Of a stretch of DNA of 52,005 nt, positions 3,916 through 9,118 are shown piece by piece. The notes under the pieces are model-generated. The model saw nothing but the letters and a program-made list of their open reading frames with translations. It was not told the origin of the DNA and did not search any database. Source of the DNA: Alicyclobacillus sendaiensis NBRC 100866 (GTDB taxonomy: Bacteria > Bacillota > Bacilli > Alicyclobacillales > Alicyclobacillaceae); the NCBI RefSeq assembly GCF_001552675.1, contig NZ_BCRQ01000010.1, positions 1 through 52,005 on the forward strand. The letters run 5' to 3'. Numbering within the stretch: position 1 is the stretch's first letter; each line of letters starts with the position of its first letter. Made by a program: the position numbers and the translations under genes.

Positions 3916-4119
3916 TCAGCGAAGCGGCGCGCCCGGCTGCCACTCAGGCCGCAGATAGTCACTCGCGATGGGACTGATCAACCGCACAAGTCTCGGCGTG
4001 CCGGTTTCGTCCCGCGCGACGATGAGCGTCCGATGTCCGTCCTTCCACTCCTCAAATCGGATCTCCGTGCCCCACCATCCGCTGTAAATCTCGCTCTCGG
4101 ACAACGTCGTCCACAGCAT
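3916..4119 (-). CDS. ylzJ: YlzJ-like protein
   Basis: A 67-residue protein (starting [14 protein letters not shown]) with the size, N-terminal sequence style and position of YlzJ, a conserved protein of unknown function in spore formers. Its ATG overlaps the TGA of tepA as TGATG, implying translational coupling; a G-rich GGGGGTGA lies upstream within tepA. A longer reading frame back to 4242 is only the shadow of tepA. It lies between tepA and spoIIIE, as in B. subtilis. No motif suggests an activity. Confidence 0.85.
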   Translation of the reverse strand: MLWTTLSESEIYSGWWGTEIRFEEWKDGHRTLIVARDETGTPRLVRLISPIASDYLRPEWQPGAPLR

Positions 4120-4898
4120 CACTGAATCACCCCCGGCTGAGGGACGCGTGCGAGCGCGGAGCTCGGTCGGATCTCCTTGCGTTCCCGAATGAGGTCCTTC
4201 AGCTTCTTCATCGCCTGTCCGAGGCCGCCCACCTCGTCGCACAGGCCGTACTTGACGGCGTCCCGCCCCACCACGGTCGTCCCAATGTCCTTCGCCATTT
4301 CACCCGTGTTGAGCATCAGGTGGCGAAACATGTCTTCCGAGATGCGCGAGTGTTCGACGACGAAGCGAATCACCCGATCCTGCATCTTCTCGAGGTACTC
4401 GAACGACTGCTGCACGCCAATCACAAGGCCATTCAAGCGAATGGGATGGATGGTCATGCTGGCCGACTCCGCGATGAACGTGTAATCCGCCGCGACGGCG
4501 ATGGGCACGCCGATGGAGTGGCCTCCGCCGAGCACGACGGACACCTTAGGCTTGGACATCGAGGCCACCAGTTCCGCAATGGCAAGGCCCGCCTCGACGT
4601 CACCCCCCACCGTGTTGAGGATGATGAGCAGCCCGTCGATCTTATCGCTCTCCTCCACCGCGACGAGCTGTGGGATGACGTGTTCGTACTTGGTCGTCTT
4701 GTTCTGAGGCGGCAGCACCATGTGCCCCTCAATCTGGCCGATGACCGTCAAGCAGTAGATGTCCCCCGTCACCACGGCCGCGGGTTCGCCCGCACCAAGC
4801 GACTCCACGGGCGAAGAGGATTCCTTCGCCTCCTGCGCATCCCCGCCGCCTGCCGCTCCAGCCTTCATGACGGCGTCGTAGGCTGAACTCGTCTCCAT
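4119..4898 (-). CDS. tepA: ClpP-fold protease TepA
   Basis: A 259-residue ClpP/crotonase-fold serine protease, called translocation-enhancing protein in B. subtilis. After a variable, probably disordered N-terminus (about 40 residues) the fold begins near [10 protein letters not shown]. The likely catalytic serine is S128 in GGGHSIGVP and the histidine H151 in MTIHP. The acidic residue is expected in the segment [17 protein letters not shown], matching the ClpP pattern. Proteins of this kind have been linked to secretion and to spore development; the substrate is not known. Start: ATG at 4898 behind AGGAGG. It follows the terminator of the RNase J gene, so it needs its own promoter in 4899-4998, which I could not identify with confidence. 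Confidence 0.9.
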
Positions 4899-4998
4899 GT
4901 TTCATCCGCCTCCTGCCGTCCCAGTATCGGCAAAGGGATGCACGTCCATACGCAAGCCGTTTGGGCCGAGTTGCCGAGATGCATGCTCGCAAAAACAA

Positions 4999-5049
4999 CG
5001 AGAGCTATCCCCGCTCACCGCGCCCCTCGCGGACCGGGAATAGCTCTCG
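4999..5049 (-). terminator. Intrinsic terminator of the RNase J gene
   Basis: Arms 4999-5012 (CGAGAGCTATCCCC) and 5036-5049 (GGGAATAGCTCTCG) pair almost perfectly. On the minus strand the stem is followed by TTGTTTTTGC. It separates rnj from tepA, which are therefore mainly separate transcription units. Confidence 0.8.
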
Positions 5050-5075
5050 CGTTGCGGAAGAAGACGCCCGGCCGA

Positions 5076-6731
5076 TCACGCCTCCATGATGATGGGCAGG
5101 ATCATCGGGCGGCGCCGCGTCTGTTCGTACAGGTACCGCCCCAACGTATCCCGGACAGCCGTCTTCAGCGAAGACCACTCGCTCACGTTATCCGAGACCA
5201 GCTTGCTGAGCGTGCTCTCCACGAGGCGATTGGCCTCATCCAACAGCGCCTCCGACTCGCGCACGTAGACAAAACCGCGCGAGATGATGTCGGGACCCGA
5301 CAGGATGTGCCCCGTCGTCTTGGAGAGCGTGACCACCACGACCAAGATCCCGTCCTGCGACAACAATTTGCGATCGCGCAACACGATGTTGCCGACGTCG
5401 CCGACGCCAAGCCCATCGATCATCACAGATCCGGCCGGCACCTTACCGCCGAGGCGCGCTCGGCCGTCCTCAAACTCCACCACGTCTCCAATCTCCGTGA
5501 TGAAGATGTGGTCTGGCTGAATGCCGAGCTGGACGGCGAGATCGGCGTGGATCCGCTGCATGCGAAACTCGCCGTGCACCGGGAGGAAGTATTTCGGGCG
5601 CACGAGCTGAAGCATCCACTTGAGTTCTTCCTGACTCCCGTGCCCCGAAGCGTGGACGCCGCGGTAAATCACGTGAGCGCCCGCGCGGAACAGCTGATCG
5701 ATGGTCCTTGCCACGAACTTTTCGTTGCCGGGAATCGGCGAACTCGCCAACACGACGGTGTCGCCCGGCACAATTTCGATTTTGCGATGCGCTGCGCGAG
5801 CCATGCGGGTGAGCGCGGACATCGGCTCCCCTTGGCTGCCCGTGGAGAGGATGACAACCTTCTCGGGCGGCAGCTTATTCACCTCGTCCGGATCGATCAG
5901 CGTGTCCGGCTGCGCCTCCAGGTATCCCAGCTGCAGCGACGTCTGAACGTTGTTGACCATGCTGCGGCCGACGATGGCGACTTTGCGGCCATGGCGCTCC
6001 GCCGCCCGGATCATGAGCTGCAGGCGGTGGATGTTTGACGCAAAGGTGGACAGAATCACGCGCCCGGGAGCTTGACTGATGATCTCGTCGATCCGGATGC
6101 CGACCGTCATCTCCGACGGCGTATAACCCGGCCGTTCCGCGTTCGTGCTGTCGCCGACGAGGGCCAGCACGCCTCGCGCTCCCCACTGTGCCAGTTTGTG
6201 GATATCCGCGCGCCGCCCGTCAATCGGCGTCTGGTCGAATTTGTAGTCGCCCGTATGAATGACGACACCTTCCGGCGTTTCGATGGCAAAGCCGACCGTG
6301 TCCGGAATACTGTGGTTCACGTAGAACGGGGACACCGCGAACTGGCCGAGTTGGACGCGCGACTTTCCATCCATGGTGACGAGCTTCACGTCATGCACGC
6401 CCGCCTCGCGCAACTTGTTCTCCACCAGGCCGAGCGTCAAACGCGTTCCGTACACCGGCACGTTGATCTCGCGAAGCACGTACGGAAGTCCGCCGATGTG
6501 GTCTTCGTGTCCGTGCGTGAGAAAGATGCCGCGAATTTTCTCGCGATTCTCGACCAAAAACGTGATATCCGGAATCACGATGTCGATGCCGAGCATATCT
6601 TCATCAGGAAACTTGAGCCCCGCATCGACGACGATCATGTCCTGCCCGTACCAGTACAGCGTCATGTTCTTTCCGATCTCCCCGACTCCACCGAGCGGGA
6701 TGATCGAAAGTCTCGACTTCGATTTTGGCAT
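5076..6731 (-). CDS. rnj: Ribonuclease J (5'-exo/endoribonuclease)
   Basis: A 551-residue metallo-beta-lactamase/beta-CASP ribonuclease of mRNA decay and rRNA processing. The zinc-binding motif is complete: HGHEDH at residues 73-78. DSTNAERPGYTPSE, TGSQGEP and the C-terminal SGHGSQEEL region are all present. Position next to tepA corresponds to rnjB (RNase J2) of B. subtilis. J2 there has lost part of this motif, whereas this protein keeps all ligands like J1, so I do not assign J1 or J2. The start ATG (6731) has GGAGG at good spacing. It has a strong promoter about 240 bases upstream and its own terminator, so it is a single-gene unit with a long leader. Confidence 0.93.
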   Translation of the reverse strand: MPKSKSRLSIIPLGGVGEIGKNMTLYWYGQDMIVVDAGLKFPDEDMLGIDIVIPDITFLVENREKIRGIFLTHGHEDHIGGLPYVLREINVPVYGTRLTLGLVENKLREAGVHDVKLVTMDGKSRVQLGQFAVSPFYVNHSIPDTVGFAIETPEGVVIHTGDYKFDQTPIDGRRADIHKLAQWGARGVLALVGDSTNAERPGYTPSEMTVGIRIDEIISQAPGRVILSTFASNIHRLQLMIRAAERHGRKVAIVGRSMVNNVQTSLQLGYLEAQPDTLIDPDEVNKLPPEKVVILSTGSQGEPMSALTRMARAAHRKIEIVPGDTVVLASSPIPGNEKFVARTIDQLFRAGAHVIYRGVHASGHGSQEELKWMLQLVRPKYFLPVHGEFRMQRIHADLAVQLGIQPDHIFITEIGDVVEFEDGRARLGGKVPAGSVMIDGLGVGDVGNIVLRDRKLLSQDGILVVVVTLSKTTGHILSGPDIISRGFVYVRESEALLDEANRLVESTLSKLVSDNVSEWSSLKTAVRDTLGRYLYEQTRRRPMILPIIMEA

Positions 6732-6819
6732 TTTGCACCTCCGTTACCATACCCAAGGAATTCAGCGACACGATCACGACCAGCCCTCCCGGTCTCCTTT
6801 CGCAGTTCCCTCGACATGC

Positions 6820-6845
6820 AAAAAAAAGCCCGCTCAGACCAAGGC
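6820..6845 (-). terminator. Possible attenuator or small-RNA terminator in the rnj leader
   Basis: On the minus strand a GCC...GGGC hairpin with two G-U pairs and a bulge is followed directly by eight T residues (6820-6827). It lies about 130 bases after the predicted transcription start and about 90 bases before the rnj start codon. The hairpin is weak as drawn, so the T8 tract is the main evidence. Confidence 0.35.
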
Positions 6846-6980
6846 CGTGTCTTTCTGTGCATCGAACGCGCTCAAACGGACCACCCGACCCGTTCCATCC
6901 GCTTTCACGCCATTCGTTGTCTCCGCGCCAGGGCTCGCACATCCTCGCGCGAATAAGCCGCACATGTCACTATCAGTGTC

Positions 6981-7009
6981 ATTATACTCCCGTTCGGATC
7001 CTGACACAA
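6981..7009 (-). promoter_or_regulatory. Sigma-A promoter of rnj
   Basis: A perfect TATAAT -10 (6981-6986 on the minus strand) lies 17 bases from TTGTGT (7004-7009). The predicted start near 6974 leaves a leader of about 240 bases. A 19-base imperfect dyad (6964-6982) overlaps the -10 and the start point. Confidence 0.75.
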
Positions 7010-7105
7010 CCATCAATCCGTCCTTGCTGACCAGAGCCTTTGCAGCGCGCCGGCGTGCGTCACGCCTCGATCCTGCCCAGAGATGTAGTATTCCATCAGA
7101 AAACA

Positions 7106-7114
7106 TGCTACAAT
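7106..7114 (+). promoter_or_regulatory. Extended -10 promoter of leucine dehydrogenase
   Basis: TGCTACAAT: a TACAAT -10 (7109-7114) with the TGn extension. No good -35 is seen at the usual distance (TAGTAT at 7086-7091), which is common for extended -10 promoters. The predicted transcription start is near 7121. Confidence 0.6.
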
Positions 7115-7124
7115 TGAGGTTGAT

Positions 7125-7138
7125 TGAAAGCGCTTGCA
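7125..7138 (+). promoter_or_regulatory. cre-like site (CcpA operator) at bcd
   Basis: TGAAAGCGCTTGCA fits the relaxed Bacillus cre consensus WTGNAANCGNWNNCW at every position, counting the T before it. It starts a few bases after the predicted transcription start, a position from which CcpA represses by blocking initiation or elongation. An almost identical site lies at 17239-17252. Confidence 0.7.
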
Positions 7139-7208
7139 AACGAGCGCCGCCCTATCGTTCTGGTAGGACCGCCGGAACGGCATACTCCGTGGGGAGGTCT
7201 CGAAGGAC

Positions 7209-8303
7209 ATGGAACTTTTTACTCGCATGGTCCAATTCGATTACGAGCAGGTGATCTTCTGCTACGACAACGCCTCCGGCCTGCGCGCCGTGATCGCCAT
7301 CCACGACACGACGCTCGGCCCCGCGCTCGGCGGATGCCGGATGTGGACGTACGCCTCTGAAGAGGACGCGGTGGTCGACGCGCTCCGCTTGGCGCGCGGC
7401 ATGACCTACAAGGCGGCTGCGGCCGGGCTGAATCTCGGCGGCGGCAAGACGGTCATCATGGGAGATCCGCGAAAGGACAAGAGCGAGGCCCTGTTTCGCG
7501 CCTTGGGGCGGTACATCCACAGCTTGGGCGGGCGATACATCACCGCCGAAGACGTGGGCACAACCGTCCAGGATATGGACCTCATTCACCTCGAGACGCC
7601 GTACGTGTGCGGCATTTCGCCAAGCTACGGTTCGAGCGGCAACCCAAGCGGCATGACGGCCCTCGGCGTGTTCCGCGGGATTCAGGCGAGCGCCAAGTAC
7701 CTGTACGGCACGGACGATCTCGCCGGGCGCCGCGTCGCGGTTCAGGGGCTTGGAAGCGTCGGATACGAACTGGCTCGCCTCCTGCACGGCGCCGGAGCCG
7801 AGCTGCTGGTCGCCGACGTCAACCCCTTGCAGGTGGAGCGCGCAGTCAGTGAATTTGGAGCGCAGGCGTTGTCTCCTCAAGACATCCTGAGCGCCGAATG
7901 TGAGATTCTGGCGCCCTGCGCGCTCGGAGCAGTCTTGAATGACGAAACCATCCCGCGGATTCGGGCCCAGATCATCGCGGGTTCCGCGAACAACCAGCTA
8001 GCCGAAGAGCGACACGGAGATCTGCTCCACGAGCGAGGCATTTTGTACGCGCCTGACTACGTCATCAACGCAGGTGGACTCATCAACGTGGCCGACGAGC
8101 TCGAAGGGTACCACCCGGAACGCGCGCGGTCGAAGGTGGAGCGGATCTACGACATCATGCTGAACCTGTACAAGCTGTCGTCGGAGCGCAATATCCCGAC
8201 GTACCGGGCCGCGGACGAGATGGCGATGAAGCGGATTGAGACCCTGCGACAGGTGCGAAGCAGTTACCTGGGTCATCATGAACCGGTGCGGCGCGGACGC
8301 TGA
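7209..8303 (+). CDS. bcd: Leucine dehydrogenase (Glu/Leu/Phe/Val family)
   Basis: A 364-residue NAD-dependent amino acid dehydrogenase that converts leucine, valine and isoleucine to their 2-oxo acids, releasing ammonia. The catalytic lysines K68 (MTYK) and K80 (GGGKT), the AEDVGTT segment with the catalytic Asp, and a Rossmann GLGSVG turn are all present. The length is that of characterised Bacillus leucine dehydrogenases, and the N-terminal MELF...DYEQV matches them. It is the only plus-strand gene of the catabolic block and converges with the operon that degrades the downstream acyl-CoAs. A cre-like site in its 5' region predicts repression under good carbon supply. Confidence 0.95.
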
Positions 8304-8315
8304 TCCGCACATGGG

Positions 8316-8345
8316 AAAGGCGCGGGGCTCCTCCCCCGCGCCTTT
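8316..8345. terminator. Bidirectional terminator between bcd and the degradation operon
   Basis: A perfect 12-bp stem (8316-8327 with 8334-8345; AAAGGCGCGGGG) with a six-base loop. The A/T ends of the stem let it work on both strands, ending bcd and the seven-gene minus-strand operon. Confidence 0.85.
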
Positions 8346-8359
8346 TCGCATCCGCGCAT

Positions 8360-9118
8360 TTACCTCGGCTGCATGCGCAGCGCTCCGTCGAGGCGAATCA
8401 CCTCTCCGTTCAACATCGGGTTCTCCACGATGTGGCGCGCGAGGAGCGCGTATTCGCGCGGACGCCCGAGCCGCTGGGGGAACGGAACCTGCTGTCCGAG
8501 CGACTGGCGCGCGGCCTCGGGCAGGCCCATGAGAAGCGGCGTCTCGAAGATGCCTGGCGCGATACTCACCACCCGAATCCCGTAGGCGGCCAGTTCGCGC
8601 GCTGCAGGCAGCGTGAGCCCCACGATGCCGCCCTTGGACGCCGCGTACGCCGCCTGGCCGATCTGACCCTCGTAAGCGGCGATGGACGCGGTGTTGATGA
8701 TCACGCCGCGTTCGCCGTCTTCGAGAGCCGGCGCCTCGGCAACGCGCGCGGCCACGAAGCGCATCACGTTGAACGTGCCGACGAGATTCACCTGAATCAC
8801 GCGCGCGAAGCTGTCCAGCGAGTGAACGCCGCGCTTGGACAGGATCTTTTCCGCCGTGGCGATGCCGGCGCAATTCACCGCGCCGCGGAGCGCGCCGCCC
8901 CGCGCGACTTCCTCCACCGCCGCGCGCACCGCGTCCTCATCCGTCACGTCGACCCGGAAATATGAGCCGTCAATCTCCTCGGCCACCCGCTTACCGCGTT
9001 CCTCCTGCACGTCAAAGATGGCGACCTGCGCGCCGGCCTCCGCGAATGCCCGCGCTGTGGCTTCACCGAGCCCGGATCCGCCGCCCGTCACAATGAACGC
9101 CACACCTTCAAGTTTCAT
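8360..9118 (-). CDS. HSD10-type 3-hydroxyacyl-CoA dehydrogenase (SDR family)
   Basis: A 252-residue short-chain dehydrogenase. It has the TGGGSGLG cofactor loop, an Asp after the second strand (IFDVQ) pointing to NAD, a catalytic S in [11 protein letters not shown] and YAASK. The C-terminal block [11 protein letters not shown] with [15 protein letters not shown] is typical of type II 3-hydroxyacyl-CoA dehydrogenase (HSD10). That enzyme oxidises 2-methyl-3-hydroxybutyryl-CoA in isoleucine breakdown. Being the last gene of the operon, next to a thiolase, fits this step, since the thiolase would cleave the product to acetyl-CoA and propionyl-CoA. Straight-chain 3-hydroxyacyl-CoAs are possible alternative substrates. 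Confidence 0.88.

Follow-up and report, generated by a model that had tools for sequence, protein, structure and literature searches.

A short sequence box conserved at the predicted 5′ terminus of the RNase J mRNA leader in Alicyclobacillus and other Bacilli, a candidate site for feedback control

Introduction

RNase J is a 5′-3′ exonuclease of mRNA decay in Bacilli, the class to which Alicyclobacillus belongs. In the window, i.e., the whole stretch of 52,005 nucleotides of Alicyclobacillus sendaiensis analyzed here, its gene (rnj) is preceded by a long leader with a run of eight T (T8), which raises the question of whether this leader holds a control site for RNase J and in which of its parts that site would lie. 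An earlier note, made from the sequence alone, had placed a strong promoter about 240 bases upstream of rnj and proposed that a hairpin followed by the T run either terminates transcription prematurely, allowing RNase J to control its own level, or forms the end of a separate small RNA.

Control of RNases through their own mRNAs has precedents. The Escherichia coli genes rne, pnp and rnc are feedback-regulated (PMC3997798), and rny, the RNase Y gene of Bacillus subtilis, is autoregulated via its own mRNA, which is cleaved early in the coding sequence and in the 5′ UTR, in the latter mainly within the 5′-terminal 50 nt, and is trimmed by RNase J1 (PMC10303841). The 5′ exonuclease activity of RNase J1 itself needs a monophosphorylated 5′ end or a 5′-OH (PMC10303841).

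Results

The RNase J locus and its predicted transcript

The rnj gene starts with an ATG at 6731, read on the minus strand (Table 1). Its product is 98–99% identical to its counterparts in five members of the genus, and records under the names A. mali and A. fructus match it at 98%; the A. acidocaldarius group is the most probable affiliation of the window. ClpP-like and FtsK-like genes lie 3′ of rnj and a divergent dehydrogenase gene (7209–8303) lies 5′ of it; the best NCBIfam matches of all these neighbors fall below the cut-offs. The predicted transcript start, at about 6974, is seven bases past the -10 box. Thus, the long leader proposed in the earlier note is real and is preceded by a perfect TATAAT, but the description of the promoter as strong is not borne out: the -35-like hexamer matches the consensus in three of six positions, and the promoter is absent from the sites listed by a sigma-70 scan.

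Table 1. Features of the rnj locus in the A. sendaiensis window
Feature	Position	Strand	Remarks
rnj, RNase J, 551 aa	5076..6731	-	TIGR00649, 628.6 bits (cut-off 400)
Leader of rnj, predicted, about 243 nt	6732..6974	-	from the predicted start to the ATG
Shine-Dalgarno GGAGGTG	6736..6742	-	from sequence
3′ block CGTGTCGCTGAATT	6759..6772	-	invariant in six species; complementary to the transcript 5′ end
75-nt imperfect hairpin, T8 within its 5′ arm	6775..6849	-	-31.6 kcal/mol, z -3.09
T8 tract	6820..6827	-	about +148 to +155 of the predicted transcript
Compact terminator-like hairpin GGCCT...GGGCT, weak	6827..6846	-	directly 5′ of the T run
Long, nearly invariant block CGCGTTCGATGCACAGAAAGACACGGCCTTGG	6839..6870	-	six-species alignment
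Second predicted leader hairpin	6863..6916	-	consensus fold, six species
Variable leader hairpin	6922..6953	-	holds both double-sided pair changes of the consensus fold
5′ box TAGTGACATGTGCGG	6958..6972	-	predicted +3 to +17; in other genomes most often AAGTGACTKGTGCGG
-10 box TATAAT, perfect, of the rnj promoter	6981..6986	-	from sequence; kept in 15 of 15 genus members
Weak -35-like hexamer TTGTGT	7004..7009	-	17-nt spacer to the -10 box; 3/6 consensus

Constraint and fold of the leader

In the alignment of six species, 185 of the 247 columns of the leader show no change, as against 62 of the 263 fourfold sites of rnj; in the gappy upstream spacer the count is 19 of 218 columns. Constraint falls on the initial 26 nt, on the block at about 6870–6839, on the T run and on a GGTCGTGATCGTGTCGCTGAATT motif before the ribosome-binding site. 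There is good support for reading the rnj leader as a conserved regulatory region, and selective constraint on the leader of an RNase's own gene is what is expected of an autoregulatory RNase leader. On this point the earlier note, which had taken the leader for a regulatory region, is upheld by the constraint and by the 5′ box described below, with self-control by RNase J as the best guess.

The whole 243-nt leader folds better than its shuffled versions (z -2.45; 4 of 200 as good), and z-scores of the whole leaders of the six species range from -1.84 to -3.38; the first 162 nt give a z of only -0.45, with 58 of 200 shuffles as good. Double-sided changes are found in just 2 of the 78 pairs of the six-species consensus fold, both in a single species and in the variable hairpin, of which one pair is broken in two other species. 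In the comparison of homologous leaders that the earlier note had suggested, the T tract, as detailed below, is confined to a minority of the genus.

The T8 tract

Terminator-type attenuators of Bacillota leaders combine a long leader with a hairpin and a T tract. The rnj leader resembles them in having all of these, but differs in that its compact hairpin is weak and in that the homologous tract, a GCGGGC followed by T7 or T8, occurs in only 6 of the 15 members of the genus; of the nine others, three carry a T6 or T7 at another place in the leader, and the remaining six lack any T run of six or more. The T8 is the sole one in the whole window; however, the mean number in shuffled windows is 0.31 and at least one is present in 21 of 100 of them, so that the T8 alone is unremarkable. 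The compact hairpin (GGCCU...GGGCU in the RNA) reaches -4.2 kcal/mol at 37 °C in the window, -4.2 to -5.9 kcal/mol in five relatives and, in the window at 60 °C, -1.2 kcal/mol. A terminator scan of 4000–9000 listed nine sites, and the T8 site is not among them. Thus, of the hairpin followed by eight T in the earlier note, the T run is present but the compact hairpin is weak. In favor of the earlier note, a search that permits stems as long as 42 nt gives, for the best hairpin adjoining the T run, -7.1 kcal/mol in four of the six species, including that of the window, -10.5 in L138 and -14.0 in L132, all these values being without a shuffled control; the pairings of these longer stems differ between the six species.

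In all six close species the T run also pairs with a downstream GCGAAAGGAG-type sequence inside a hairpin of 74–75 nt, with energies of -29.3 to -36.9 kcal/mol. In each of them at most 1 of 300 shuffles is equally stable, and z ranges from -3.09 to -5.06 (-3.34 to -5.06 in the five relatives), values that are somewhat flattering because the segment 6849–6775 was picked after seeing the consensus fold. This competing partner lies 3′ of the T8 and would come too late for a classical antiterminator. The conservation of the T run seems better explained by the long hairpin than by termination.

A box conserved at the predicted transcript start

The most conserved part of the leader is constituted by the first 15–17 nt of the predicted transcript. 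The consensus start in the genus consists of TATAAT, 10–11 nt and GTGAC(A/T)(T/G)GTGCGG, and most other parts of the leader vary by lineage; the 10–11 nt distance from TATAAT to the 5′ box holds in all 15 members. In the lineage to which the window belongs, the box is GTGACATGTGCGG; as RNA it is UAGUGACAUGUGCGG in the window and mostly AAGUGACU(G/U)GUGCGG elsewhere. We searched genomes with the pattern TATAATN{4,14}GTGACNNGTRCGG, using the reversed pattern as a control. The pattern is found once each in 15 of 15 genomes of the genus, that of the window included, 38 of 41 of the family and 38 of 59 of the order, the reversed pattern being found in none. An exact match is lacking in three family genomes, of which G040 and G033 carry one-base variants 5′ of rnj (loci L195 and L194) and the third, which is 62% complete, yielded no rnj. 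In a sample of the class, the pattern matches 61 of 398 genomes and the reversed control one; in 58 of the 398 the match adjoins rnj, and L164, L165 and L170 match elsewhere. Over all 70 loci of this first form, which include the 61 class genomes, rnj follows in 67. Because most positions are prescribed by the pattern itself, independent evidence of conservation comes from the unfixed positions: at four such sites 31, 32, 30 and 31 of 35 representatives agree.

A form longer by one base, AGTGACTGGGTGCGG, is found in 36 of the 398 class genomes (reversed pattern, none), and all 31 of the 36 loci that were read for the downstream gene precede rnj. All but one of the 36 belong to family f5, which looks like Paenibacillaceae and of which one genome in the sample lacks this form. 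The box is also present in Tumebacillus avium, another member of the Bacilli (L051). Most class genomes match neither form, and the box is thus no general requirement for RNase J. In the sister family f2, for which 15 of 18 genomes were searched for rnj, there is only a partial form, of the TATAATCGGACTACCAGACGGGTGCGG type in L197, L198 and L200 with a relative in L207, and, by eye, in L196, L199 and L202. A looser pattern matched 10 genomes in a set of 398, seven at rnj, all within the class, and three outside the class, none of them at rnj, with the reversed control matching 7 genomes; it gave no rnj-linked match in the 382 genomes from other classes of the phylum. A weight-matrix scan, in which rnj was not placed in 20 of 97 loci, lent no support to a box-like stretch noticed by eye in a Veillonellaceae rnj leader (L061, TATAAT...AAGCGACTACGTACGG) and was negative for two weakly box-like Bacillus loci (L096, L097); these candidates were set aside.

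The association with rnj is tight for the commonest 16-base form, GTGACTGGTGCGGCTT: across the 41 family genomes, 21 of 21 exact copies lie at rnj, a single one per genome. When one mismatch is allowed, 7 of 33 family matches fall away from rnj; the 12 one-mismatch matches comprise 5 at rnj and these 7, a number close to chance since the reversed pattern gives 3. The box is not palindromic and is oriented as rnj at every rnj-linked locus read. Furthermore, the distance from TATAAT to GTGAC stays at 8–11 nt in 67 leaders whose lengths range from 54 to 415 nt (the latter in L161), all retaining the box. Within a single genus of f5, leaders of 79 and 85 nt (L221, L225) stand against leaders of 297–307 nt (L222–L224), and all five keep both the box and a CGTCCA near the Shine-Dalgarno sequence despite the difference of more than 200 nt. 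Such natural length differences, which leave the box in place, argue for the box rather than the middle of the leader as the core.

Pairing of the 5′ box

Over 39 leaders, the box and the remainder of the leader paired no better than shuffles did (Fisher p = 0.99), a CG-anchored pairing model gave p = 0.37 for 45 leaders, and pairing with the 60 nt before the Shine-Dalgarno sequence gave p = 0.51 for 33 leaders. A general pairing within the leader, negative in these three shuffle tests, was accordingly set aside as not supported and is retained only as a lineage-specific possibility. Such pairing is seen in the six-species fold, where +3..+11 (6972–6964) are complementary to and pair with 6771–6763 of the invariant 3′ block, the duplex having p = 0.002 in the lineage of the window and p = 0.027 in L133, a lineage like A. 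hesperidum. Further, a 5′ hairpin common to ten selected members of the family was recovered de novo from their alignment: AGUGA-C-UGGUG-CG-G-CUUUGA...UCAAAG-RA-CG-AA-CAUCA-UCACU, in which 97.8% of the cells pair, as against 30–58% when slid, and none of the 18 pairs is doubly changed. Its 3′ arm is retained in L161 despite about 150 nt inserted between the arms. A covariance model built from these ten sequences matches the f5 loci L211–L213 at the box with E-values of 4.9–7.5, and finds nothing outside the family at E < 1; hairpins of other families aligned poorly with MAFFT. Since pairing over all lineages is no better than chance, we read the box chiefly as a sequence that is recognized, to which some lineages would add pairing.

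Several lineages have in common a second box, in some of them near the ribosome-binding site. The likelihood of this motif exceeds that of shuffles but is inflated by related sequences, so that the second box can be taken only as suggestive; when hand-picked second boxes were swapped among 23 lineages, the result was borderline (p = 0.07).

Rfam 15, scored with curated thresholds, has no match in the window, two hits in 6700–7250 being far below their gathering scores, and over 16 related loci it returned only two tRNAs; a riboswitch, T-box or other known RNA at the rnj leader was thus rejected. Searches for relatives of the leader in plasmids and in phages gave no match.

Other rnj leaders

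Other rnj leaders display features of their own. In two family members of one genus (L147, L149), at about +132 to +165, there is a terminator-like AGCCAAAAG...CUUUUUUUGGCU hairpin followed by a T run, with energies of -9.2 and -10.3 kcal/mol (no shuffled control), and in L153 a GGGC...GCCC hairpin with six T was seen by eye just 5′ of the ribosome-binding site; these three leaders may be subject to attenuation. The leaders of L147–L149, L153, L154, L155, L159 and L160 share a CCGNAGYGGAGACGG-type sequence some 80–90 nt in, which is likely to form a hairpin and whose middle resembles the GUGGAGA of an element in Ktedonobacteria. That element, found in rnj leaders of Ktedonobacteria and other Chloroflexi, is a different conserved hairpin, GGCUUU-(CUCCUG/CAGGAG)-UGGAGAUA, present at 13 loci (L067, L077–L081, L083–L085, L087, L088, L091 and L092). 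Judged by eye from the alignment, it shows apparent compensatory changes (CUUCUG/CAGAAG, CUCUUG/CAAGAG, CUCCUAU/AUAGGAG), and L091 apparently has two tandem copies. Rfam searches of L062, L073 and L091 gave nothing but tRNAs.

Discussion

Taken together, these observations suggest cis-acting control through the rnj leader, with the 5′ box at its core. The box is likely bound as RNA by a trans-acting factor for feedback on RNase J; we give this reading, drawn from sequence comparison, an even chance. RNase J itself or a partner would be the simplest candidate for the factor, given that the exact copies of the box found in the family all lie at rnj and that RNase J degrades RNA starting from the 5′ end. 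The factor would set the stability or the translation of the rnj mRNA, such that an excess of RNase J would lead to binding or trimming at the 5′ end and thereby lower rnj expression. The middle of the leader would be lineage-specific structure, in the clade of the window including the 75-nt hairpin that takes up the T8.

The position of the box, at about the predicted +1 and at a fixed distance from the -10 box, is compatible with an RNA end and with a promoter element alike. The box might accordingly act in DNA, as an initially transcribed part of the promoter or as an operator bound by RNA polymerase or a repressor; the fixed 8–11 nt to TATAAT fits this equally well, and the want of a general RNA pairing partner and of appreciable covariation points the same way. 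Against it are the non-palindromic sequence and its constant orientation with rnj, the strong constraint on the leader farther downstream, the second box shared by several lineages, and the fact that the 16-base form has no second exact target in the family, which would be unusual for the operator of a regulator; we consider a DNA-level role rather unlikely. A different role at the RNA level would be that of a plain stabilizer, in which a 5′-terminal hairpin or a closure onto the 3′ part of the leader shields the rnj mRNA from 5′ exonuclease attack with no dedicated factor. The de novo family hairpin and the significant duplex with the invariant 3′ block speak for such a shield; however, this pairing is lineage-specific rather than general, and a mere shield would not demand sequence conservation of this degree across families, making this role quite unlikely.

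The proposals centered on the T8 fare no better. Premature termination there could draw on the T7–8 kept after GCGGGC in six species, on stems of up to 42 nt that run from -7.1 kcal/mol to -14.0 kcal/mol, and on the better terminator-like hairpins in the leaders of the relatives L147 and L149. Yet the compact hairpin is weak, and weaker still at 60 °C, the longer stems vary among species, the T run is taken up by the competing long hairpin, nine of 15 genus members do without the homologous tract and the scan does not list the site; we therefore regard control of rnj by an attenuator at the T8 as improbable. The same possible terminator could in principle define the first 150 nt as a separate small RNA, but the invariant blocks do not stop at the T8 and continue on either side of it up to the ribosome-binding site, which leaves that suggestion of the earlier note with hardly any credibility.

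The preferred reading, feedback through a factor bound to the 5′ box, can be set beside the known autoregulated RNases. The E. coli rne leader is alike in belonging to a major enzyme of mRNA decay and in mediating feedback on its own mRNA; it is unlike in that RNase E binds an internal stem-loop, whereas the conserved part of the rnj leader is its extreme 5′ end, and, in contrast to RNase E, RNase J is a 5′-3′ exonuclease whose binding to the rnj box is putative. The B. subtilis rny case likewise ties a Bacillota RNase to its own mRNA, though with another gene and enzyme, and no conserved 5′-terminal box is mentioned in the passages of that study that were searched (PMC10303841). Similarly, in the passages searched, the review with the E. 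coli cases names none for RNase J (PMC3997798), and term searches inside PMC10303841, PMC3997798, PMC10126417 and PMC8632094 gave no description of an rnj leader element or of RNase J autoregulation. The same was the outcome of our literature search, with subscription papers and supplements outside its scope. Pending experiment, the rnj 5′ box would thus join the autoregulated RNase leaders in kind, the box itself being undescribed in the literature searched.

As a more tentative extension, which we hold to be possible but doubtful, the RNase J of many Bacilli may read the first 15–17 nt of its own mRNA via a sequence-specific site at the 5′ terminus, such that a 5′ exonuclease, or a partner, would recognize the very end from which digestion would start, with the second box coupling this to translation in several lineages. 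The literature searched describes no control site for the synthesis of RNase J. A box of 15 nt at the predicted 5′ end, kept while the remainder of the leader was gained, lost or rewritten, would offer a concrete target for RNase J feedback.
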